The translations under genes and the position numbers were made by a program. Under the pieces are notes generated by a model. It worked only from the letters and a program-made list of their open reading frames with translations, searched no databases and was not told the origin of the DNA. 64,000 nt of DNA from NCBI RefSeq assembly GCF_022026155.1, contig NZ_CP085041.1:218306-282305 (forward strand), in the 5' to 3' direction. Source of the DNA: Dissulfurimicrobium hydrothermale. Its GTDB lineage: Bacteria; Desulfobacterota; Dissulfuribacteria; Dissulfuribacterales; Sh68. Below, in pieces: positions 1,280 to 14,751 of the stretch; the stretch's first letter is position 1; every line of letters starts with the position of its first letter.

Positions 1280-2809
1280 ATGAAGATTATTAAAAGATAT
1301 CTCACGGGCGCAGCCTTGATCACCGCATTGATGGCGCACGGCACAGGCAGCGCCCTTGCCCAGGGCAAGATAAGCGATGCCACGCAGGCCTGTCTCGGGT
1401 GCCACGAATCCGCAACCCCAGGGATTGTGGCCGACTGGAAGAGCGGGCGCCATTCAAAAATGACCGTCGAAGAAGCCCTCAAGAAGCCGGTTATCGAAAG
1501 ACGCATATCCATAGAAAAGGTCCCTGCGGGCATGTCTGGGATAGTTGTGGGCTGTGCCGAGTGTCACACAATAAATGCAGCCTCTCACAAGGATACCTTT
1601 GAACACAATGGCTTCAAGGTCCATGTGGTTGTGACCCCCCAGGACTGCGCCGAATGCCACCCGGTTGAAAGGGACGAATATGCAAAGAATATCATGTCCC
1701 ATGCCTATGGAAACCTTGTAAATAACCCTGTCTATCACGGCCTTATGGACTCGACAAACGGCATAGCCGCATTTGACGGCAAAAAGGCGACTATCGGCAA
1801 GCCAGATCAGATCACACAGGATGACTCTTGTCTCTACTGCCACGGCACAAAGATAGAGGTAAAGGGCCTGAAGGCGCGCGACACCTCGATGGGGGAGATG
1901 AAATTCCCCGAACTTGCAGGCTGGCCAAGCGTAGGGGTTGGCCGCATAAACCCCGACGGCTCCAAGGGCTCATGCACCTCGTGCCACCCGAGACACGCCT
2001 TCTCCATCGAGGTTGCGCGAAAACCTGCCACATGCTCGGAATGCCACAAGGGCCCTGATGTCCCTGCCTACAAGGTTTACAGTGTGAGCAAACACGGGAA
2101 CATCTACGCCGCCGACAAAGAAAAATGGCATTTCGATGCGGTGCCGTGGAAGCTGGGCGAAGACTTTACCGCGCCCACCTGTGCGACGTGTCATGTGAGC
2201 CTGCTTGTCACCAAGAGCGGTGAAGTAATAGCCAAACGCACGCACCAGATGAGTGACAGGCTTCCCTATAGGCTCTTCGGTCTTATCTATGCTACACCTC
2301 AGCCAAAGTCACCTGATACGAGCATCATCAGGAACAAAGCCGGCCTGCCGCTTCCGTCCGAGCTTACAGGCGAACCGGCGGCCGCTTATCTGATCGATGC
2401 AAAGGAACAGGCCCAAAGGCTTGCAACAATGGAGGCCGTATGTCTCGCCTGCCACACCCAGCCTTGGGTGGACGGACACTTTGCAAGGCTGGATCAGTCC
2501 ATAAAGACCACTAACGAGATGACGCTTACAGCCACAAAGATCGTCCTTGCCGCCTGGGGTAAAGGCCTGGCTAAGGGGCTTGCCCAGCATGACAGCATAT
2601 TTAACGAGGCCATTGAGAAGATGTGGATAGAGGAGTGGCTGTTTTTCGCCAACTCAACCAGATTCGCCTCGGCAATGGGCGGCGCCGACTATGGGGTCTT
2701 TGCAGATGGGCGTTGGGCCATGTCACGCAACATCCAGAAGATGTCCGACTGGCTCAAGTTTCTTGAGGCTGCGCACAAGGGTATAAAGGACAATAAAAAG
2801 AAAAAATAA
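1280..2809 (+). CDS. Octaheme cytochrome c, hydroxylamine oxidoreductase (HAO) family
   Basis: The 509-residue protein starts with a signal peptide (hydrophobic stretch to about residue 28, ending ALA-Q) and has exactly eight CxxCH motifs: CLGCH, CAECH, CAECH, CLYCH, CTSCH, CSECH, CATCH and CLACH. Eight hemes at this length, with two CAECH motifs early and CLACH late, fit the HAO family. Oxidative HAO cross-links a tyrosine C-terminal to the last heme to heme P460; the ~30 residues after CLACH contain no tyrosine, although one occurs later (GADYGVF). It may therefore be a reductive, epsilon-HAO-like enzyme acting on hydroxylamine or nitrite, but that needs an alignment. AAGGAGG precedes the next gene, and the downstream genes all deal with reactive oxygen or nitrogen. 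Confidence 0.85.
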
Positions 2810-2823
2810 AGGAGGAACACAAG

Positions 2824-3198
2824 ATGACAAAGAGGCTACAGATTTACAAGTGCGAGATATGCGGAAACATGGTGGAGATGGTCCATGATGGCGTGGGGCA
2901 GCTCGTCTGCTGCGGACAACCCATGAAGCTCATGGAGGAAAATATCGTAGATGCGTCCAGGGAAAAACACGTCCCTGTGATCGAGAAGGTCGATGGTGGC
3001 TACAAGATCAAGGTGGGCAGCGTTCCTCACCCGATGGAGGAAAAGCACTATATCGAATGGATCGAGCTCATTGCGGACGGCAGGGCCTATAGGGAATTCC
3101 TGAAGCCAGGCGACAAGCCCGAGGCCTTTTTCTGCATCGACGCAACGAACATAACCGCCCGCGAATACTGTAACCTTCACGGGCTATGGAAGGGATAA
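2824..3198 (+). CDS. dfx: Desulfoferrodoxin (superoxide reductase, two-iron type)
   Basis: The 124-residue protein has both iron sites of class I desulfoferrodoxin. The N-terminal desulforedoxin-like centre has CEIC near residue 10 and VCCG near residue 29. The catalytic centre has the histidines in KHVPV, VPHPM and EEKHYIEW, then the C-terminal Cys-Asn-Leu-His in EYCNLHG. It reduces superoxide to peroxide in the cytoplasm without releasing oxygen, using rubredoxin as donor. AGGAGG lies upstream of the ATG. It sits 14 bp after the octaheme gene and overlaps or abuts ferritin, as in oxygen-defence clusters of sulfate reducers. Confidence 0.96.
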
Positions 3199-3203
3199 AG
3201 ACC

Positions 3204-3746
3204 ATGCTCAGCAAAAAGATGCAGGACCTATTGAACGACCAGATAAATTTTGAATTTTATTCGGCCTATATCTATCTGTCCATGGCGGCATATCTCCAGG
3301 CGAATGACCTGCTAGGATGCGCCCATTGGATGAGGGTGCAGACGCAGGAGGAACTCATGCATGCCATGAAAATGTACGACTTCGTCAATGACCGTAGCGG
3401 CAGGGTGGTTCTGAAGGAGATCAAGGGGCCAAAGGCAGAATGGGCGTCACCGCTTGAGGCCTTTGAAGATGCGCTCAAACACGAGCAGACAGTGACAGGC
3501 CGCATAAACCACATGATGGACATCGCCATTGAGGAAAAGGACCACGCCACCCAGATATTCCTCCAGTGGTTTATCTCCGAGCAGGTTGAAGAGGAGGCGT
3601 CGGTAGGCGCGGTAATCCAAAGACTGAAGCTTGCTGGTCAATCTCCGGGCGGGATGTTCATGGTGGACAAGGAGCTTGCTCAAAGGATATTCACGCCGCC
3701 TCCCCAGACATCCCAAGCGCCTCTAGCGCCGCCCCAAAAGGCCTGA
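3204..3746 (+). CDS. ftnA: Bacterial non-heme ferritin
   Basis: This is a four-helix ferritin with ferroxidase-type residues in NFEFYSAYIYLSMAAY near the start and in the EELMHAMKMYDF and SEQVEEE regions. It stores iron as ferric mineral and lowers Fenton chemistry. I start it at 3204 (MLSKKMQDLL, the usual family start) because GGAAGGG lies about 10 bp upstream; an in-frame ATG at 3186 overlaps dfx by 13 bp and is less likely. The C-terminus carries an unusual proline/alanine/glutamine-rich tail of about 15 residues. Confidence 0.93.
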   Translation: MLSKKMQDLLNDQINFEFYSAYIYLSMAAYLQANDLLGCAHWMRVQTQEELMHAMKMYDFVNDRSGRVVLKEIKGPKAEWASPLEAFEDALKHEQTVTGRINHMMDIAIEEKDHATQIFLQWFISEQVEEEASVGAVIQRLKLAGQSPGGMFMVDKELAQRIFTPPPQTSQAPLAPPQKA

Positions 3747-3758
3747 AGGAGCAGAAAT

Positions 3759-3992
3759 ATGTCAAGACCAGAGGATATGTGGCAGTGCCAGACCCTGAAT
3801 TGCGGATACATCTATGACCCAGACAGGGGTGACAGAAAGGGCAAGATACCGAAAGGGGTGAGGTTTAAAGACCTACCCGACGGCTGGAGATGTCCCGTGT
3901 GCGGGGCCACAAAGGCCATGTTTAGGCCCCTTGCGGGCCCTGGATCTGTTATGGAGGAACAGGCCATACCTGGACCTCAAACTGAAGTCTAA
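3759..3992 (+). CDS. Rubredoxin-like protein with widened first metal loop
   Basis: The 77-residue protein has the rubredoxin fold signature: a first cysteine pair followed by GYIYDPDRGD, and a second pair CPVCGA. The first pair is CQTLNC, so four residues separate the cysteines instead of two. Widened loops are known in some Desulfovibrio rubredoxins and shift the redox potential. A tail of about 25 residues follows the core. It probably passes electrons to desulfoferrodoxin or Roo. AAGGAGC precedes the ATG, 12 bp after ferritin. Confidence 0.88.
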   Translation: MSRPEDMWQCQTLNCGYIYDPDRGDRKGKIPKGVRFKDLPDGWRCPVCGATKAMFRPLAGPGSVMEEQAIPGPQTEV

Positions 3993-4015
3993 AAAGATAA
4001 AAGGAGATGACAGAA

Positions 4016-4177
4016 ATGAAAAAATACAAGTGCTCTGTTTGTGGATATGTCTATGACCCTGCAGTCGGAGACGCTGAAAACGGCGTTGAGCCTGGCACCC
4101 CGTTTGAGAAGCTGCCTGAGGACTGGGTCTGCCCGGTATGCGGGGCTGCAAAGGATCAATTTGATCCGATAGATTAA
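4016..4177 (+). CDS. Rubredoxin, canonical
   Basis: This 53-residue protein begins [19 protein letters not shown] and ends with [15 protein letters not shown]. It has the standard CxxC...CxxC iron site at Cys6, Cys9, Cys39 and Cys42 and the normal rubredoxin length. AAGGAGATG precedes the start, 23 bp after the first rubredoxin. It is the likely direct electron donor for the rubredoxin:oxygen oxidoreductase encoded 440 bp downstream. Confidence 0.96.
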
Positions 4178-4232
4178 GGATCGGCCATGTCCAGAGAAGG
4201 ACGGCCTTCCTGACAGGACCCTGGGGGACGGC

Positions 4233-4589
4233 ATGAAAAAGATGAAAAAGATAGTGATCTTTGCATTCAGGGGCGAGGCCATGTGTTTTGTGCATGTCCT
4301 CTTGAATTCCCTCGACCTCAATAAAAAGGATATGGGAGGCAGAATAGTCATTGAAGGCGAGGCGACAAGGCTCATACCAGGGATGGAAAGACCCGACGAC
4401 TTTCTGAACAACTTATATCTCAAGGTTAAAGAAAAGGGCCTCATAGACGCGGTCTGCAAGGCCTGCTCTCAAAAGATGGGCGTGCTGGCCGAGGTGGAAA
4501 GGCTTGGACTCCCGATAGCGTCAGATATGTCGGGTCATGTAGCTATGGCAGGATATATTGAAAGGGGCTTTGAGATAATAACCCTTTGA
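4233..4589 (+). CDS. DsrE-like small cytoplasmic protein
   Basis: The 118-residue protein begins with a beta strand (KKIVIFAFRGEAMCFVHVLLNSLDL) and has an alpha/beta pattern like DsrE/DsrF-type sulfur-handling proteins. Two cysteines in CKACSQ near residue 75 could carry persulfide. The family assignment rests on fold pattern and length only. It is cotranscribed with the rubredoxin and roo genes, with GGGGGA upstream of the ATG. Confidence 0.65.
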   Translation: MKKMKKIVIFAFRGEAMCFVHVLLNSLDLNKKDMGGRIVIEGEATRLIPGMERPDDFLNNLYLKVKEKGLIDAVCKACSQKMGVLAEVERLGLPIASDMSGHVAMAGYIERGFEIITL

Positions 4590-4619
4590 CATGATTATAG
4601 ATCTATAAGGAGGCAAGAA

Positions 4620-5810
4620 ATGACTGCAACAGAGATAAAAAAAGACATCTACTGGGTCGGGGCCGTGGACTGGACTATCCGCGACTTTCATGGCTACTCC
4701 ACCTATAAGGGCACGACCTATAACGCATATCTCATGAAGGATGAAAAGACGGTCCTATTTGACACGGTAAAGAAAGAGAAAAAGGGCGACCTTGTCCATC
4801 ACATCAGGGCCATCATGGACCCTGAAAAGATCGACTACATCGTGGTGAACCATGTAGAGATGGATCACTCAGGCTCTCTGCCCGATATGATCGACCTGAT
4901 AAAGCCCGAGAAGGTCTTCTGCTCAGCCATGGGCAAAAAGGCCCTGATTGAGCATTTTCATCGGGAGGACTGGCCATTGGAGGTGGTTTCGCCAAACCAG
5001 CCGATAAGCACCGGAAAGAGGTCCATCCAGTTCATTGAGACCAGAATGCTCCACTGGCCGGACAGCATGTTCTCTTACATCCCAGAGGAAAAACTCCTGA
5101 TCTCCAGTGACGCCTTCGGCGAACACTGGGCGACCAGCGAACGTTTTGATGACGAGGTGGATTTTGACGAACTCATGCGGCACAACGCCAAGTATTACTC
5201 AAACATCCTGCTCCTGTACTCGCCTCTGGTGCAAAAGCTCCTTGAAAATGTAAGGAAATCGGGGCTGCAGATAGATATGATTGCACCTGACCACGGCCTT
5301 ATAAAACGCTCTCACATAGCAGACATCCTCAAGGCCTATGACGACTGGTCAAGCCACAAGGCAAAGAAAAAGGCGCTGGTGATCTATGACACCATGTGGC
5401 ACAGCACCGAGATGATGGCGAAGGCGGTTGCGGACGGGATCATGGATGAAGGCGTAAGCGTCCAGCTCCTGGACCTGCAGGTAAACCACCGGAGTGACGT
5501 CATAACCGAGGTCCTTGACGCCAAGGCGGTCGTTCTCGGATCCCCCACACTCAACAACGGCATGCTCCCTCGTATGGCGGGCTTTCTTCAGTATATGAAG
5601 GGGCTGAAGCCCGGCAACAAGATCGGCGCGGCATTCGGCTCATACGGCTGGAGCGGCGAGGCGGTAAAGCAGATGAATCAGGCCATGGAAGAGATGAAGT
5701 TTACGGTCACAGAGCCCGGCATCCGCATAAAATACGTCCCGGCGCACCCAGACCTCAAAGAATGTGTGGAGATGGGCAGGAGAATAGGTAAGGCCGTAAA
5801 GGCAGACTAG
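4620..5810 (+). CDS. roo: A-type flavoprotein, rubredoxin:oxygen/NO oxidoreductase
   Basis: The 396-residue protein has the flavodiiron architecture. An N-terminal metallo-beta-lactamase domain carries the diiron ligands His78-x-Glu80-x-Asp82-His83, a later His in ETRMLHWPDS, Asp in SSDAFGEHW and His in APDHGLI. A flavodoxin domain starts near residue 255 (KALVIYDTMWHSTEMMAKAV) and binds FMN. The enzyme reduces oxygen to water or NO to N2O in the cytoplasm with electrons from rubredoxin. It follows two rubredoxin genes and has AAGGAGG upstream. Confidence 0.95.
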   Translation: MTATEIKKDIYWVGAVDWTIRDFHGYSTYKGTTYNAYLMKDEKTVLFDTVKKEKKGDLVHHIRAIMDPEKIDYIVVNHVEMDHSGSLPDMIDLIKPEKVFCSAMGKKALIEHFHREDWPLEVVSPNQPISTGKRSIQFIETRMLHWPDSMFSYIPEEKLLISSDAFGEHWATSERFDDEVDFDELMRHNAKYYSNILLLYSPLVQKLLENVRKSGLQIDMIAPDHGLIKRSHIADILKAYDDWSSHKAKKKALVIYDTMWHSTEMMAKAVADGIMDEGVSVQLLDLQVNHRSDVITEVLDAKAVVLGSPTLNNGMLPRMAGFLQYMKGLKPGNKIGAAFGSYGWSGEAVKQMNQAMEEMKFTVTEPGIRIKYVPAHPDLKECVEMGRRIGKAVKAD

Positions 5811-5812
5811 GC

Positions 5813-6397
5813 ATGGACAGGCGGGCGCTGGGGCAAACCTTGAGGGAAAAAGGACTTGAAGAGGTACTGCGCCAGCTCTCCGGCCTCTCTGCCAAAAAGG
5901 CCATAAACACCCTCATTCCATCTCTTTACTCGCCTGACGAGGTGGTGAGACTCAAAGCCGTCTCTGCCTTTGGTGACATGATGAAAAGACTTGCCGGAGA
6001 AGACATGGAGGCGGCCCGCATTGTAATGCGCCGGCTTATGTGGAGCCTCAATGACGAATCAGGCGGCATCGGCTGGGGTGCGCCGGAGGCGATGGCAGAG
6101 GCCATGGCAAGGCACAAGGGCCTCCTAGAAGAGTATGGACAAATACTGCTTTCTTATATACGGCAAGACGGCAACTATCTTGAATATGCCCCACTAAGGA
6201 AAGGGGCGCTCCGGGGGATCATGAGGATATCTGAGACAAACCCGGACTTTTTAAAAAAATGCAAGGCCATCGTATATATAAAACCATTCCTTGTGTCTCC
6301 TGATCCGCTTGAAAGAATGTACGGCTCACTAATAGCAGATCGCATAGGCGAAAAGGAAGATTACAAGGCGCCTTCAAGCCCGGCAGGCGATAAGTAA
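5813..6397 (+). CDS. DVU0298-like helical repeat protein
   Basis: This 194-residue all-helical protein shows HEAT-like helices (SPDEVVRLKAVSAFGDMMKRLAGED, then NDESGGIGWGAPEAMAEAMARHKG). The IGWGAPEAM segment resembles a conserved protein of sulfate reducers often labelled DVU0298. Its ATG lies 2 bp after the roo stop, so it is translationally coupled to it. It has no catalytic motif; a scaffold or partner role for the flavoprotein is a guess. Confidence 0.7.
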   Translation: MDRRALGQTLREKGLEEVLRQLSGLSAKKAINTLIPSLYSPDEVVRLKAVSAFGDMMKRLAGEDMEAARIVMRRLMWSLNDESGGIGWGAPEAMAEAMARHKGLLEEYGQILLSYIRQDGNYLEYAPLRKGALRGIMRISETNPDFLKKCKAIVYIKPFLVSPDPLERMYGSLIADRIGEKEDYKAPSSPAGDK

Positions 6398-7518: not shown

Positions 7519-8829
7519 ATGGATGTATTGATGTTGTCGAGGCTGCAGTTTGCTGCCGCCACTATGTTTCACTTTCTCTTTGTCCCGTTGACCTTAGGGC
7601 TTTCGATTCTGACCGCGGTCTTTGAGACCATGTATGTAAGGACCGAGGATGAAGATTACAAACGGGCTGCCAAGTTTTGGGGCAAACTCTTTCTTATCAA
7701 TTTCGCACTGGGGATCGTGACCGGTATCACGTTGGAGTTTCAATTTGGCACCAACTGGTCGCGCTATTCAAAATATGTAGGCGATATCTTCGGTTCGCTC
7801 CTGGCCATCGAGGCTACGCTGGCCTTCTTCCTGGAATCCACCTTCGCAGGCCTCTGGATATTCACATGGGACAAGGTCTCAAAGAAGACGCATGCGGTCT
7901 TTATCTGGCTGGTGGCCATTGCGTCCAATGTCTCGGCCCTTTGGATACTCATCGCAAACGCATGGATGCAAAGGCCTGTCGGCTATGTGCTAAGAAACGG
8001 CAGGGCTGAACTGGACAATTTTACAACCGTCATCACGAACAAGTTTGCAGTGCTGGAATTCCTGCATACCATAAGCGGCGCCTACATCTTGGCCGGTTTC
8101 TTTGTAATAGGCGTCTCAGCTTATCATATCCTCAGAAAAAACGAGGTCGTCTTTTTTAAAAAATCGTTCAATGCCGCAGTGACCTTCACACTCATATTCG
8201 CCTTATTCGAGGTATTCAACGGCCACTTAAACGGTTCCGAGGTGGCGGAGACACAGCCTACCAAGCTTGCCGCCATGGAATCCCACTGGGAGACGGATTC
8301 TTATGCGCCGATGTACCTATTCCTGATCCCTGATGCAAAGAATGAGAGAAACAGTGTAGAGATCCTGCCAATCCCTGGCGCACTGAGCCTGCTTGCCTTC
8401 CATAGGGCCTCAGCTGAAGTAAAAGGTCTTAAGGACTTTGCGGTCCAAGACCGTCCACCTGTAGGACTTACTTTCTGGTCGTTCAGGATAATGGTGGGTC
8501 TTGGGTTTCTCTTTGCAGTCCTTGCCGTGATAGGCTGGTTTAAACGCAACGACATAGAAGAATATCCAGGGTATTTGAAACTAATGGTCTGCGCCATTCC
8601 CCTTCCATATATAGCAAACGAAGCGGGCTGGATAGTTGCGGAAGTGGGCAGGCAACCTTGGATCGTATACGGGCTCATGCGGACATCCGATGCCGTATCA
8701 GTGCTTGCGGTATCTCAGGTGGCCGTCTCTTTGGCGGCGTTTGTAATACTTTATACGTTTTTGGGTGTTGTGGACTTTTATCTACTTGCAAAATATGCCC
8801 GCAAGGGCCCAAATCCGGCCAAGGCTTAG
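7519..8829 (+). CDS. cydA: Cytochrome bd oxidase subunit I
   Basis: The 436-residue membrane protein has heme ligand His18 in ATMFHFLFVPL, many hydrophobic helices and the signature GWIVAEVGRQPWIVYGLMRT near residue 370. The quinol loop is short, so it belongs to the short-Q-loop type rather than the E. coli long form. With CydB it oxidises quinol and reduces oxygen with high affinity in the inner membrane. In an anaerobe this serves oxygen removal or microaerobic respiration, consistent with the roo/dfx cluster upstream. Confidence 0.96.
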   Translation: MDVLMLSRLQFAAATMFHFLFVPLTLGLSILTAVFETMYVRTEDEDYKRAAKFWGKLFLINFALGIVTGITLEFQFGTNWSRYSKYVGDIFGSLLAIEATLAFFLESTFAGLWIFTWDKVSKKTHAVFIWLVAIASNVSALWILIANAWMQRPVGYVLRNGRAELDNFTTVITNKFAVLEFLHTISGAYILAGFFVIGVSAYHILRKNEVVFFKKSFNAAVTFTLIFALFEVFNGHLNGSEVAETQPTKLAAMESHWETDSYAPMYLFLIPDAKNERNSVEILPIPGALSLLAFHRASAEVKGLKDFAVQDRPPVGLTFWSFRIMVGLGFLFAVLAVIGWFKRNDIEEYPGYLKLMVCAIPLPYIANEAGWIVAEVGRQPWIVYGLMRTSDAVSVLAVSQVAVSLAAFVILYTFLGVVDFYLLAKYARKGPNPAKA

Positions 8830-8860
8830 ACAGATCAAAAAAAATAAAGGAGGCGTCATC

Positions 8861-9886
8861 ATGCTTGAGACTATATGGTTCATACTATGGGGTGTACTCT
8901 GGGCGGTATATTTCATGCTCGACGGTTTTGATCTGGGCCTTGGCTCGCTAATGCCCGTATTGGCCGAAAACGAACAGGAAAGGCGGATTGTCTATAACGC
9001 CATGGGTCCGTTCTGGGACGGAAACGAGGTCTGGCTGATCACTGCGGGCGGCGCTACATTTGCGGCATTCCCGGTGGCATATGCAGTCATGTTCAACGGT
9101 CTATATGCAGCCCTACTCCTGCTCCTGTTCGCCCTTATCTTAAGGGGGATATCGTTCGAATTCCGCAATAAGGTGGACAGCCCGGGTTGGCGCTCAATCT
9201 GGGATGCGTGTCTAGTTATTGGAAGCTTTCTGCCCGCACTCCTTTTGGGCATCGCCTTTGCAAACATATTTCAGGGTATCCCAATAGATGAAAACGGGGT
9301 ATTCCAAGGCGGGCTCCTCACCCTCCTAAACCCCTATGGCATTGCCGGTGGTGTACTCTTTGTGCTCCTATTCATGCTCCACGGCTCTATCTGGCTTGCA
9401 ATAAAATCCGAGGGCGATCTACAGACAAGGGCCGGACGGATGGCATCCAGGCTTTGGCCCATACTACTTGTAGTGGCGATACTGTTCCTTGCCTTTACGT
9501 TCTTCGCCACCCATCTCTTTAACAACTACCTCAAGACACCGGTGCTCATGATCATACCTTTGATCGCGGTAGCGGCACTTTTGATAACAAAAGTCTTCAT
9601 CGGACGGATGAACTGGTGGAAGGCGTGGTTCGCCTCAAGCACCACCATACTCTTTATCACCTTTTTCGGCGTGGCAGGGCTCTTCCCTGATCTCCTGCCA
9701 TCAAGCCTCAATCCTAACTACAGCATAACGGCCTTTAATGCGGCCTCAAGCCAACTTACATTGAAGATCATGCTGGTCGTGGCCCTGGTCATAGTGCCTA
9801 TCGTGATCGCCTATCAAACATGGGTCTATATCTTTTTAAGGGGTAAGGTTACGGAAAAAGACCTGACCTACGAAGAGGCATATTAA
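8861..9886 (+). CDS. cydB: Cytochrome bd oxidase subunit II
   Basis: The 341-residue protein starts MLETIWFILWGVLWAVYFMLDGFDLG, the typical CydB N-terminus with the conserved DGFDLG motif, then GPFWDGNEVWLITAGGA. About eight to nine hydrophobic helices follow. I use the ATG at 8861 (AAGGAGG 8 bp upstream); a longer in-frame reading that starts inside cydA has no family support. It is 31 bp after cydA and is the partner subunit. Confidence 0.95.
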   Translation: MLETIWFILWGVLWAVYFMLDGFDLGLGSLMPVLAENEQERRIVYNAMGPFWDGNEVWLITAGGATFAAFPVAYAVMFNGLYAALLLLLFALILRGISFEFRNKVDSPGWRSIWDACLVIGSFLPALLLGIAFANIFQGIPIDENGVFQGGLLTLLNPYGIAGGVLFVLLFMLHGSIWLAIKSEGDLQTRAGRMASRLWPILLVVAILFLAFTFFATHLFNNYLKTPVLMIIPLIAVAALLITKVFIGRMNWWKAWFASSTTILFITFFGVAGLFPDLLPSSLNPNYSITAFNAASSQLTLKIMLVVALVIVPIVIAYQTWVYIFLRGKVTEKDLTYEEAY

Positions 9887-10108: not shown

Positions 10109-11104
10109 ATGAAAAGTCTTGGTTTATTAAAGATTGGGATTGTAATGCTCATCATGGCTATGGGTATCTTTTATCCTAGTTTCGGCATTTGCAACGATGA
10201 TTTTGACAGATTTATCATGCCGGTGTCCAACCCTATATATCTAGGAGACGCAAGAAACGTCACCATGATAAGACCTATTTATCTCTTTCAAAGGCTCCCC
10301 CAAAAGGTCGATACCATAATAGGCAAGGTCCCGCTTGGCGGCCACATAAACGGCTTCGCAATTCAGGCGAGTTACGCCTTTAACGATAGACTCTCGCTTG
10401 TTGCAGTGAAGGACGGCTATATAGACTGCAGGCCCAACAATACCCTAAATGATCACAACGGCTGGGCCGATATAGCCGCAGGGCTCCAATATTCATTTTT
10501 GTATCACCCACAAGACAACTTTATCATGACCGCCAGGCTTGTTTATGAAATGGCAAGCGGTAGCGATCAAGTCTATCAGGGAAACGGCGACGGCAACTTC
10601 AATCCATCCATCTTGTTCTTGAAGGGGATCGACAGGCTGCAATTCTCAGGGGCGCTCGGCCTTGTAGTGCCGGTTGACAGAAACCAAGAAAACACCCTGT
10701 TTTATGATTCGTGGCACCTTGATTATGCGGTTACAGACTGGTTCAGACCCCTTGTTGAACTCAATCATTTCTATGTCATAGACAGCGGCGACAGGGATCC
10801 ATGGATCAGGAACGCCATAAATAAGCTCGGGGTCGAAAGGGCGTTAAGCGCAACGCTCGGCACAAGCAAGGAAGACGATGTAGTCGCAAGCGTCGCCAAA
10901 TTCAATGGATGCGACATTGTCGACCTCGGCGGCAGGTACAATGACGACCACAGGAATCTCGTCACCCTCGCCTTCGGCTCAAGGTTCAGGGTTACAAACT
11001 GGCTGGACTTCGGTGCAGCCTATGAAATCCCACTCACAAGCAAAGAGGATGGCCTGATACGCGACAGATTGATGCTGGACGCCATAGTGACGCTCAAATT
11101 CTAG
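10109..11104 (+). CDS. Outer-membrane beta-barrel protein, function unknown
   Basis: The 331-residue protein has a signal peptide (hydrophobic core about residues 8-28) and then alternating amphipathic strands rich in aromatic residues (GFAIQASYAFNDRLSLVAVKDGY, AAGLQYSFLY, LVTLAFGSRFRVTNWLDFGAAYEIPL). It ends in VTLKF; a C-terminal Phe is the usual BAM recognition signal. It resembles the broad outer-membrane transporter family near phenol_MetA_deg, but no substrate can be read. GGGAGGG lies upstream of the ATG. It appears monocistronic. Confidence 0.7.
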   Translation: MKSLGLLKIGIVMLIMAMGIFYPSFGICNDDFDRFIMPVSNPIYLGDARNVTMIRPIYLFQRLPQKVDTIIGKVPLGGHINGFAIQASYAFNDRLSLVAVKDGYIDCRPNNTLNDHNGWADIAAGLQYSFLYHPQDNFIMTARLVYEMASGSDQVYQGNGDGNFNPSILFLKGIDRLQFSGALGLVVPVDRNQENTLFYDSWHLDYAVTDWFRPLVELNHFYVIDSGDRDPWIRNAINKLGVERALSATLGTSKEDDVVASVAKFNGCDIVDLGGRYNDDHRNLVTLAFGSRFRVTNWLDFGAAYEIPLTSKEDGLIRDRLMLDAIVTLKF

Positions 11105-11252: not shown

Positions 11253-12447
11253 ATGGTTGAGACCTCGTCAACAAAACCACATGAGGCCCTACATCATGGA
11301 CTGAGTTCCGACGAAGCGGCCCGTCGATTGCAGCAATACGGTCTAAATGCCTTGGAGGAGAAAAAAATCTCCATCCTGCGCCAGCTGCTCGGCTACTTCT
11401 GGGGGCCGATCCCATGGATAATCGAGGCGGCGGCCCTGCTCTCGGCCATCGTCAGGCACTGGGCGGATTTCTGGATCGTCACCGCCCTGCTCATCTTCAA
11501 TGCGGCGGTAGGCTTCTGGCAGGAATACACGGCCGGCAATGCGGTGGAGGCGCTGAAGAAACAGCCCGCCACGCGCGCCAAGGTGTTGTGCGATGGTCGG
11601 TGGCAGGAGATCGACGTCAAGCCGTTGGCGCCAGGCGACATCATCCGCATCCGTTTGGGAGATGTGATCCCGGCTGACGTCAAATTGACGGAGGGGGATT
11701 ATCTGAGCGTGGATCAATCGGCCCTGACCGGCGAATCCCTGCCGGTGACCAAACGCGCCGGTGACGCGGCCTTCTCGGGCGCTGTGGTCAAACAGGGCAA
11801 GGTGGTGGCCGAGGTCACAGCCACCGGCAAGAATACCAGGTTCGGCCAGACCGCATCATGTTCTTTGTGGTGCTGGCGATGATGTTCTTCGACTTCTATC
11901 CGATCACCGCCGTCATGATCATCCTGCTGGCGTTCTTCAACGACGTGCCCATCATGACCATCGCCTATGACCGCACTGGTCTTGAACAGCGCCCCGTGCG
12001 CTGGGACATGCGCCAGGTCATCACTGTGACAACCGCAATGGGGTTCGTTGGCGTAATAGGAAGCTTCGGGATGCTACCGATCGGCCATGGACTGGCTCAA
12101 ACTGGGCGTGTCGCAGATACAGACCTACGTCTTCCTCAAGATGGCAGTGGCTGGTCACCTGGTGCTATTTGCGGCGCGCACCAAGGACCATTTCTGGAAA
12201 CGGCCCTGGTCCGCCCCCATCATGGTCTGGTCGGCGGTTATCACCAAGTTGGAGCACCCTGCTGGCCGCCTACGGCTTTGGGCTCATCATGCCCATCACC
12301 TGGCCGGAAACCGTCCTGATATGGGGATATTTGTTCATCTCCGTCCTTATGACAGATCTCGTAAATGTTCATGTTTACCACCATTTGCGACCTAGACACA
12401 CTAGATCAGAAAGAAAGGAACGCGCCATTACCGTACCATGTATTTAA
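11253..12447 (+). pseudogene. P-type (PMA-like) H+-ATPase, internally deleted and frameshifted
   Basis: The first ~200 codons are a normal plasma-membrane-type P-ATPase N-terminus: GLSSDEAARRLQQYGLNAL, helices M1-M2, then the actuator domain with LTGESLPVTKRAGD. At about 11852 the sequence jumps from FGQT straight to the late membrane region (RIMFFVVLAMMFFDFYPITAVMII, LAFFNDVPIMTIAYD), so the phosphorylation DKTGT motif and the nucleotide-binding domain are missing. Two further frame changes follow near 12085 and 12260. The remnant cannot pump ions. It is visibly more GC-rich than its neighbours, suggesting acquired DNA in decay. AAGGAGG precedes the original ATG. Confidence 0.88.
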
Positions 12448-12477
12448 CCTGCCATTATTTTTTAAGGAGTTGTTGAA

Positions 12478-14751
12478 ATGCCTGATTGGAAAAAAAAGAA
12501 GATATTGCTCATGGGCTCCAGGGTGACGATAACAAATATGCCCATAAAAGAGGTGAACCTTATCGCCCAGGGGAGTCTACCGGCCTACGGCTATGACCCA
12601 GGCGACTTCATAGAACTGATGGCGGGCAAGGTCACGATTGAAGAGGGACGTCTTGAGCAGTGCCTCACCTGGCTCTCCTCCTACCTGACCGCATCGGGGC
12701 TAAATCCGAGGATTAGCACCCTTAATTACGGCGTACGAAGAGACGTCTTTCAGATATTCAAAAAACGCAGCAGCCAAGGCCCTGTCGAAAACGATCACGG
12801 CTGGTTCATGGTCCAACAAATACTCCCTCCCGGGGGAAGAAGTACCGAACCTGACCATATTGAAATAACAAACGACAACAAATCGGCACTGGAGGCAAAC
12901 AACGGCATAGTGATCATTGACGACGGGGGAAATCCGCCGAGACTTGCAGGAGAAATAAAAGAACTCAACCCAGGGGCATGGGCGATAGCCCTCGGCATAA
13001 GCGCGGCCCACTGGCAAGGCTGGGTGGAATCTTTTAAGGAAAATTTCATATTGATATGCAGACTTTCCGATCTCGAAACCACGCGAATGGAGATGGACAG
13101 CTCAATCCTATGGGAATCCACTGTGGCAATGGCCGTAAGGGCGCTGAAGAGCCCAGAGGTGGGGCTTTGGGATGAGAGATCGAACCGCTTCAAATGCCAC
13201 ATAATGGTTGAGATGTTTCCTGACGGCATACTTTACATCGGCCCTGAAACGGCCATGTTCAGGCATTGGGAGGGGGCCCTTCCAGGGGTTGGATCACGCA
13301 ATACATATGGTTCGGTGCCATGCTATGATACACTTCTTCCCGCCATGCTTTCGATAGACTGTCTGCGTATAGGCGGGATACCGCTCGACAGCAACTACTT
13401 TTTTGATTTATCAAAACGCGTCCTCCTGAACTGGCATCAGCTCCACCAGCATGGATATTACTTCACCGACGGCTTGGAATTCCCGAATCTCGACTTTTCA
13501 TCAACATATCCTACCGGGGTCCCATGCTCATTCCTGAATACATACGATGACCCATGTTTCTTTGTACTGCCACCCTTCACCCCACATCTTGAACACATGC
13601 TGGAAATCGTCTCCAGCCAGTCATGGTGCAAAGACAGAAAACAGGCCATAAGGTCGTTTTTCAGGGCCAATACACCGGCCAATCAGTGTGAAACAACCGG
13701 CCCAGCAGCAACCGCAAGAGACCTGGGGTATATAGGTGTTATACTCTCGGTGCTGAAACACCTAAAGGAAGAAGTAAACCGCAAGGCCGGCTTCAAATAT
13801 CTGCGCCTCTTCCAGGTAGGCGCCCTCCGAACAACGGACCCGGTCGAGATCGAACCGGTCATGGCCCTTCAAAGGGTGATGGACAGCTATGTTACAAAGG
13901 AACATGTCAAGCGCCCTTTATGCGTAGGGGTATTCGGTCCACCGGGCTCAGGTAAATCATTTGCCGTGGAAGAGGTTGCAAGGGTCATCTCAAAAAGGTT
14001 CGACAGAAACCCGTTTGAATTCTTTCAATTCAATCTGACGCAGTTTTCAGGTCCTGAAGAGATAAATTCAGCCATCGATCTTGTCAGGGCCTCTGTAGCA
14101 AAGGGAAGGATCCCGATCACCTTTTGGGACGAATTCGACTGCCGCTATGACGGGTTTGAATTCGGATATCTGAGATATTTTCTACCGTCCATGCAAGACG
14201 GCGTCACATACGTAAACGGCATTCCCAGGCACATAGGCCGGTCGATATTCGTCTTTGCAGGCGGGGTAAAAGAGTCATGGGATGACATGACCGCACTCCT
14301 GCAACAACCCAGCGATCAAATAGACAGGATGGTCAAGACCCTCAAAATCCCTGATTTCATGAGCAGGCTCAGGGTGGTCTTGGACATAGAGGGTATAAAG
14401 ATCCCTGAGGAACTACTAAGAGATTCGACGTCTGGCGAGGACCTTGAAACCCTGCGGATGATCCTGCTCAAGAGGGCCTTTATAATAGCGCACCAGATGG
14501 ACAACCACTGGCCGAAGGCCGCCCGAAAGACCTCCGGACTCTTGCTGCGGCTCCTCATAGCCAGATACAAATTCGGCGCACGATCCATTGAGGCGGTGAT
14601 AGAATCGAGCCATGCTGCCGACCGGCTCGTCTACGGACTGCCTGAGCTTATTGCCCCTCCTGCCGCAAGGATACATGCCGAATGGCGGATAGACCTTGAA
14701 AGGAGGGTAGACCAAATCAGAAAAGAATTCGGCCTAAGGGGGGTCTGGTAG
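12478..14751 (+). CDS. Large AAA+ ATPase with unusual N-terminal half
   Basis: The 757-residue protein has an AAA+ module in its C-terminal half: Walker A GPPGSGKS near residue 487, Walker B ITFWDEFD near 550, and a sensor-like IFVFAGGV. The N-terminal ~450 residues contain segments (NNGIVIIDDGGNPP, ILICRLSDLETTRMEMDSS, CHIMVEMFPDGILYIG) faintly like a degenerate PfkB/ribokinase-type fold, at low certainty. No nuclease, HTH or membrane segment is seen. AAGGAGTTGTTGAA lies before the ATG. Its 3' end overlaps the convergent phoR 3' end by 18 bp. I do not recognise a named family. Confidence 0.75.
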   Translation: MPDWKKKKILLMGSRVTITNMPIKEVNLIAQGSLPAYGYDPGDFIELMAGKVTIEEGRLEQCLTWLSSYLTASGLNPRISTLNYGVRRDVFQIFKKRSSQGPVENDHGWFMVQQILPPGGRSTEPDHIEITNDNKSALEANNGIVIIDDGGNPPRLAGEIKELNPGAWAIALGISAAHWQGWVESFKENFILICRLSDLETTRMEMDSSILWESTVAMAVRALKSPEVGLWDERSNRFKCHIMVEMFPDGILYIGPETAMFRHWEGALPGVGSRNTYGSVPCYDTLLPAMLSIDCLRIGGIPLDSNYFFDLSKRVLLNWHQLHQHGYYFTDGLEFPNLDFSSTYPTGVPCSFLNTYDDPCFFVLPPFTPHLEHMLEIVSSQSWCKDRKQAIRSFFRANTPANQCETTGPAATARDLGYIGVILSVLKHLKEEVNRKAGFKYLRLFQVGALRTTDPVEIEPVMALQRVMDSYVTKEHVKRPLCVGVFGPPGSGKSFAVEEVARVISKRFDRNPFEFFQFNLTQFSGPEEINSAIDLVRASVAKGRIPITFWDEFDCRYDGFEFGYLRYFLPSMQDGVTYVNGIPRHIGRSIFVFAGGVKESWDDMTALLQQPSDQIDRMVKTLKIPDFMSRLRVVLDIEGIKIPEELLRDSTSGEDLETLRMILLKRAFIIAHQMDNHWPKAARKTSGLLLRLLIARYKFGARSIEAVIESSHAADRLVYGLPELIAPPAARIHAEWRIDLERRVDQIRKEFGLRGVW

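Follow-up and report, generated by a model that had tools for sequence, protein, structure and literature searches.

What can be said of a conserved gene whose product is only half recognisable? The gene lies in a 64,000-nucleotide stretch of DNA (the window) from Dissulfurimicrobium hydrothermale, a sulfur-disproportionating bacterium, and is present once in the single 2,025,450-base genome contig. The original prediction took it for an unrecognised AAA+ protein with a large, novel front half, suggested to be on accessory DNA. Its reading frame proved real and intact as claimed, with 757 codons, a single copy and orthologues over nearly its full length:

12464..12469, + strand: ribosome-binding site AAGGAG, 8 bases 5' of the ATG, read from the sequence
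12478..14751, + strand: whole gene of the unnamed PfkB-fold and AAA+ protein, 757 aa, intact, ATG start

Promoter-like and terminator-like sites are about as numerous as in shuffled sequence; Rfam detects no RNA at the gene itself and a single tRNA elsewhere in the window. Hereafter, the 757-aa family denotes those copies of the protein that lack an RyR domain. Alignment A1 holds 36 of the 45 copies, including that of the window (L001). Nine are omitted: L004 together with L027, which duplicates it; L024, a duplicate of L005, and L037, one of L012; L023, treated as a near-copy of L006; L013, which has an internal stop; L040, at a contig edge; and the partial L044 and L045. The tree and alignments A3 and A4 also omit L008. 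Identity to the 757-aa protein ranges from 58 to 80% among the 36 aligned copies.

By sequence, the AAA+ core alone is recognisable, as had been predicted, through sub-threshold AAA models and P-loop matches. The best Pfam name is bpMoxR, at 20.1 bits under a cut-off of 27, so that the curated MoxR model is not reached, and Pfam AAA gives 19.5 bits (cut-off 21.2). No Pfam or NCBIfam model attains its cut-off, and NCBIfam, PADLOC and PHROGs yield weak P-loop matches alone (best E 0.014); the description of an unrecognised AAA+ protein therefore holds. A sequence search among solved structures gave sub-significant or generic P-loop matches and nothing better. No confident match to a well-known housekeeping ATPase emerged from these searches, nor did a literature search of titles and abstract openings return any paper describing a PfkB-fold plus AAA+ architecture.

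The predicted structure of the back half is the simpler to read:

13798..14748, + strand: AAA+ domain with C-terminal lid, residues 441-757 (AlphaFold, Foldseek, VIA)
13936..13959, + strand: Walker A GPPGSGKS, residues 487-494 (sequence, alignment)
14122..14139, + strand: Walker B FWDEFD, residues 549-554 (invariant in 36 rows)
14203..14232, + strand: two short strands, residues 576-579 and 582-585, before the sensor-1 strand (DSSP of the AlphaFold model)
14350..14370, + strand: PDFMSRL, residues 625-631, with candidate arginine finger R630 (role proposed from invariance)
14575..14586, + strand: GARS, residues 700-703, with candidate sensor-2 arginine R702 (role proposed from invariance)

The AlphaFold model of residues 398-757 (41 rows) has a pLDDT of 85.3 and a pTM of 0.82. 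With the AAA+ part, Foldseek finds 376 matches at E <= 0.001, led by ClpX and ClpB NBD2. The fold is thus common to Clp/Hsp100 unfoldases (ClpX, and the D2 domains of ClpB and ClpC), which differ from our protein in their N-domain and share 13-18% identity with it among the Foldseek matches listed. In VIA comparisons, ClpC, ClpB, NtrC-type and RuvB chains score alike (Z 13.7-14.9), so no specific AAA+ clade is favoured. As regards kinship with the Clp/HslU/Lon (HCLR) clade, Clp D2 scores no better in Z than NtrC-type and RuvB chains, and NtrC-type activators equal Clp/Hsp100 in structural score.

Residues K493, D551, E552, R630 and R702 are invariant in the 36 rows, and they remain so in 35 rows joined by six of the RyR-type relatives described below. 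We take the two strands at 576-585 to be a pre-sensor-1 hairpin, as in the clades named for it, and the PDF..R and GAR patterns presumably correspond to the arginine finger and sensor 2 of Clp/Hsp100, a reading made by pattern and not by superposition. The sensor-1 strand ends in FVFAGG, with the usual polar sensor-1 residue not seen. Altogether, the back half is modelled as a Clp/NtrC-like AAA+ domain with conserved candidate ATPase residues.

The front half had been described as about 450 residues that match no family. In the model, a compact fold occupies approximately residues 7-371, and a connector separates it from the AAA+ part that begins near 441 and runs to 757:

12496..13590, + strand: ribokinase/PfkB-like fold, residues 7-371 (AlphaFold model, Foldseek, VIA)
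13309..13329, + strand: GSVPCYD, residues 278-284, at the GAGD place of PfkB kinases (alignment)
13591..13797, + strand: connector, residues 372-440 (conservation, AlphaFold pLDDT)

Conservation is lowest at residues 401-440 (0.52), and pLDDT is low at residues 397-412 of the full-length model. This model, built from the 36-row alignment, is of moderate quality (mean pLDDT 73.4, pTM 0.78). Foldseek places sugar kinases first among its matches to the front half (3kzh, E 1.3e-7), and VIA aligns it with 7c1x_A at Z 16.5 over 273 residues (rmsd 4.5). The VIA matches listed include chains of pseudouridine kinase, of tagatose-6-phosphate kinase and of ribokinase (Z 14.2-16.5), with 246-277 residues aligned.

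Profile comparisons lead to the same fold by an indirect route. The N-half of the 757-aa family matches the N-half of its RyR-type relatives (E 3.5e-7, probability 93), which in turn matches the PfkB proteins of the order (E 7.5e-5, probability 62), each E-value being that of a single pair of profiles. The N-half alignment is shallow (Neff 2.3), and its direct comparison with the PfkB proteins of the order gives no match (probability 0.5); the ribokinase assignment consequently rests on the model together with this sequence bridge. PF00294 is absent from the Pfam matches of the 757-aa protein at E <= 10, and the three places in the genome where it does match (one under cut-off) do not include this gene. 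The absence of a sequence-family match thus stands as originally predicted; the supposed novelty does not, since the AlphaFold model, the very check proposed for it, is a ribokinase fold with which the profile bridge agrees. The faint sugar-kinase-like strands first noticed by eye were a correct hint (VIA Z 16.5, Foldseek E 1.3e-7). The modelled front half is thus a known ribokinase fold and not a new one.

Would this domain still be a kinase? GAGD is the motif of PfkB kinases that joins the anion hole to the catalytic Asp. Here D284 is invariant in the 36 rows, and its invariance counts against a firm loss of catalysis; the GAG part is not retained, GSVPxYD standing in its place. A kinase reading, in which an active ribokinase-family enzyme is fused to an AAA+ motor, would account for the fold match (VIA Z 16.5) and for an invariant Asp on or beside the catalytic position. 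The missing GAG and PF00294 match speak against it, as does the offset of D284, one residue away from the PfkB catalytic position in both sequence alignments, and we hold it to be quite unlikely. We rather infer that the front half, which has the fold of the ribokinase/PfkB family (PF00294) and differs from it by the altered GAGD and the lacking family match, is a ribokinase-shaped domain with a ligand-binding role.

Both halves of the protein recur together in distant relatives (L046-L052 and others), of which the protein of Methylobacterium sp. FF17 plasmid pA (WP_264051538.1, 'RyR domain-containing protein') is an example. They carry the same conserved ATPase motifs and homologous halves, and differ from the 757-aa protein in three ways: a C-terminal RyR domain in most of them, fast divergence and, often, conflict-type neighbours. 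PF02026 matches above cut-off at the C-terminus of all six RyR-type proteins scanned with Pfam. The 757-aa protein, in contrast, stops after the AAA+ lid and has no PF02026 match at E <= 10. Two further relatives, on a viral contig (L107) and a Streptomyces plasmid (L073), appear by eye to end without an RyR domain. L107, at positions 3246-6140 of a 117-kb IMG/VR contig, is the one distant relative found in our second viral scan, the first having yielded none. RyR-type AAA+ genes occur in 8 of the 395 genomes drawn from the phylum, over 7 families.

The neighbourhood survey proposed with the original prediction separates the two groups. A profile search finds TIR, SLOG-like or DUF4062-type genes in 6 of the relatives' 11 loci (143 kb in all) and in none of the other 5; the same profiles find no such gene in 42 loci (674 kb) of the 757-aa family, at most 40 of them distinct in view of the duplicate pairs L005 = L071 and L012 = L064. 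Because the profiles were built from neighbours in the 11 relatives' own loci, it is the contrast of 6/11 with 0/42 alone that counts. TIR genes are found in L110, L111, L113 and L115, all four also above the Pfam cut-off; SLOG-like genes, so labelled by eye, in L108, L109 and L111; and DUF4062-type genes in L109 and L115, the latter above the Pfam cut-off. SLATT matches in L108 and L111 are under Pfam cut-offs; in both loci, the SLOG-like protein has C-terminal SLATT-like membrane segments. The RyR-type relative on the Methylobacterium plasmid has a SIR2-family gene in its vicinity, with two annotated genes in between. PADLOC assigns one weak mad8 match among the six RyR-type proteins and none to the other five; it has no match for the SLOG-like protein of L108 either.

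One genome of the same order (L115, G408:C47) was found to hold a 757-aa-family gene as well as an RyR-type relative, which has close to it a TIR-DUF4384 protein, separated by one ORF, and a DUF4062-NACHT-WD40 protein.

Phage RyDEP proteins, which have PF02026 in common with the RyR-type relatives, are reported to degrade or sequester cyclic ADP-ribose signals (PMC13232231); the 757-aa protein, unlike them, has no RyR domain. These cyclic ADP-ribose findings suggest the kind of signal that RyR tails might sense. MoxR-vWA ternary conflict systems (PMC7159879) likewise present an AAA+ protein in a conflict setting, as the RyR-type relatives do, and the main text of that paper contains neither 'RyR' nor 'ribokinase'. 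Their likeness to the 757-aa protein lies in bpMoxR, its best Pfam name, under cut-off.

Such relatives raise the alternative that the 757-aa protein is itself an ATPase still serving in anti-phage defence or conflict, its partners being encoded at other places in the genome. Both of its halves are indeed homologous to RyR-type proteins, some of them near TIR, SLOG-like or SIR2 genes. It has no RyR domain, however, and conflict-type neighbours are wanting in all 42 loci. The gene is furthermore inherited vertically in the order under strong purifying selection, as detailed below; tblastn finds no match to it in 50,697 phage records and two partial matches, covering the AAA+ part alone, in 72,556 plasmid records. 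We deem an active conflict role unlikely.

The family is distributed much as an ordinary inherited gene would be. A scan of genome contigs gave 22 loci matching nearly the whole protein. In the phylum draw, 35 of 395 genomes have a match. The match belongs to the 757-aa family in 23 of them, being nearly complete in 21 and partial in 2, and covers the AAA+ part alone in the other 12. Within the order, 29 of 46 genomes carry the family gene. Four of these carriers have a second match, which in three is a copy split over two contigs and in the fourth (G408) the additional RyR-type relative mentioned above. All same-order rows fall in one 14-row clade of the tree (support 100/96). Four sister pairs, of six tried, have measurable dS; in these, dN/dS lies between 0.05 and 0.10 over residues 1-440 and between 0.02 and 0.04 over the rest, so that both halves are under purifying selection. 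The gene's GC content is 51.3%, against 51.6% for the window, and its GC3 equals that of cydA (0.587).

RyR-type proteins diverge fast in the tree, while the 757-aa family evolves slowly. The branch between the two is very long and saturated, with long-branch warnings and no outgroup; to call the 757-aa family domesticated rather than ancestral is for this reason an inference.

Upstream of the gene, on the same strand, the window reads as follows:

7519..8829, + strand: cydA, cytochrome bd subunit I (Pfam PF01654, E 2.2e-179)
8852..9886, + strand: cydB, cytochrome bd subunit II (Pfam PF02322, E 1.3e-105)
10109..11104, + strand: unnamed 331-aa protein (no Pfam match at 1e-4)
11253..12395, + strand: decayed P-type ATPase remnant, context only (ORFs, Pfam of the first ORF)

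The remnant opens with an ORF of 209 aa for the N-terminal part (Pfam E1-E2_ATPase, Cation_ATPase_N); behind it come short ORFs in different frames, by eye C-terminal pieces, and the middle is missing. In a Desulfobulbaceae MAG (L013), a family copy at positions 1521-3767 is interrupted into ORFs of 186 and 551 aa. Downstream of it, beyond one intervening ORF, comes an 837-aa protein homologous to the P-type ATPase remnant.

The decaying, transferred neighbour from which accessory DNA had been surmised is thus real, and its GC content of 58.4% exceeds that of its surroundings (51.3% in our gene). The conclusion drawn from it is contradicted: the gene is single-copy here and shared by 29 of the 46 genomes in the order, in a clade supported at 100/96, with native GC3 and under purifying selection, and in L002 (80% identical) and the same-order L063 it stands behind cydA-cydB without any remnant. 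That it is an accessory-island gene of no fixed function, as the adjoining decayed ATPase might suggest, is highly improbable in view of its spread, clade support, selection and composition; it looks like an ordinary vertically inherited gene.

Could it instead be an ATPase dedicated to cytochrome bd oxidase, for its assembly or quality control, in a role that we take to be comparable to that of NorQ/CbbQ-type activators? The arrangement is suggestive: cydA-cydB precede the family gene on its own strand in the window, L002 and L063, which represent two families of the same order, as well as in L065 and L066 (family f103 of another order), and in G376 (also f103) cydA precedes it on that strand by coordinates. 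Between the two orders, cydAB identity is low, about 37% for CydA and 27% for CydB. Counting ORFs within three positions on the same strand, where many Desulfobulbaceae loci have no lineage assigned, only the cydA, cydB and 331-aa clusters among 44 recur upstream in at least two named lineages, and cydAB are the sole ones crossing orders; a homologue of the 331-aa protein also sits between cydB and the family gene in L063. Downstream, none of 38 clusters recurs in at least two named lineages. A CydA match is found in 29 of 29 carriers of the order, against 6 of 17 non-carriers, and in 21 of 23 carriers of the phylum draw, against 197 of 372 other genomes.

Against this, 18 of the 23 strong carriers of the phylum draw have no cydAB linkage, some of these copies lying near contig ends with little upstream sequence; carriers G218 and G240 are missing from the CydA-positive set, and the sole match in G346 is weak. 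Control families in the order are skewed as well, with flagellin in 28 of 29 carriers and 9 of 17 non-carriers, and NiFe hydrogenase in 26 of 29 and 10 of 17, an imbalance that comes mainly from clade f9, where the majority of genomes are missing several things. Since both controls are skewed alike, we dropped the co-occurrence of cydA as specific evidence. The link of the 757-aa family to cytochrome bd oxidase is only suggestive, and a dedicated bd ATPase is a possibility that we consider rather unlikely.

Other neighbours were noticed by eye: a CbbQ/NorQ-type AAA+-like ORF with a partner, some 5-8 ORFs upstream in six loci (L006, L012, L014, L023, L061, L064), and, in five loci (L017-L021), a same-strand ORF that precedes the gene by 1-3 ORFs and resembles an aminoglycoside-phosphotransferase-family kinase.

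We now propose that the 757-aa family is a ligand-gated protein-remodelling ATPase and an RyR-less, probably domesticated branch of a conflict-linked family, a reading to which we give an even chance. The protein would be cytoplasmic and assemble as a ring-forming, Clp-like AAA+ ATPase, whose motor may remodel or unfold a client protein. Having lost the standard kinase motif, its ribokinase-shaped front half more likely binds a small ligand, possibly a sugar, a nucleoside or a nucleotide, and this binding would gate the motor. Slowly evolving and vertically inherited, the RyR-less branch of the wider family was probably recruited from conflict work to cell housekeeping, in some lineages perhaps together with a cytochrome bd operon.

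A bolder version is very doubtful, given here for its consequences: in a domesticated immune-type ATPase, the head would sense a nucleotide or ADP-ribose-like metabolite, upon which the Clp-like ring would license or dismantle cytochrome bd oxidase. If true, such metabolite-gated control of bd would tie the signal logic of TIR/RyR immunity to the oxygen defence of anaerobes.

The analysis provides an unnamed conserved gene, shared by Dissulfurimicrobium and Desulfobulbaceae-like lineages, with an address. It also delineates an architecture composed of an altered ribokinase-fold head, an AAA+ motor and an optional RyR tail, which no single model in the libraries scanned spans. If the RyR-type relatives belong to TIR/SLOG-type immunity, the 757-aa family would show their core ATPase without the immune parts, so that the core mechanism could be tested in isolation.
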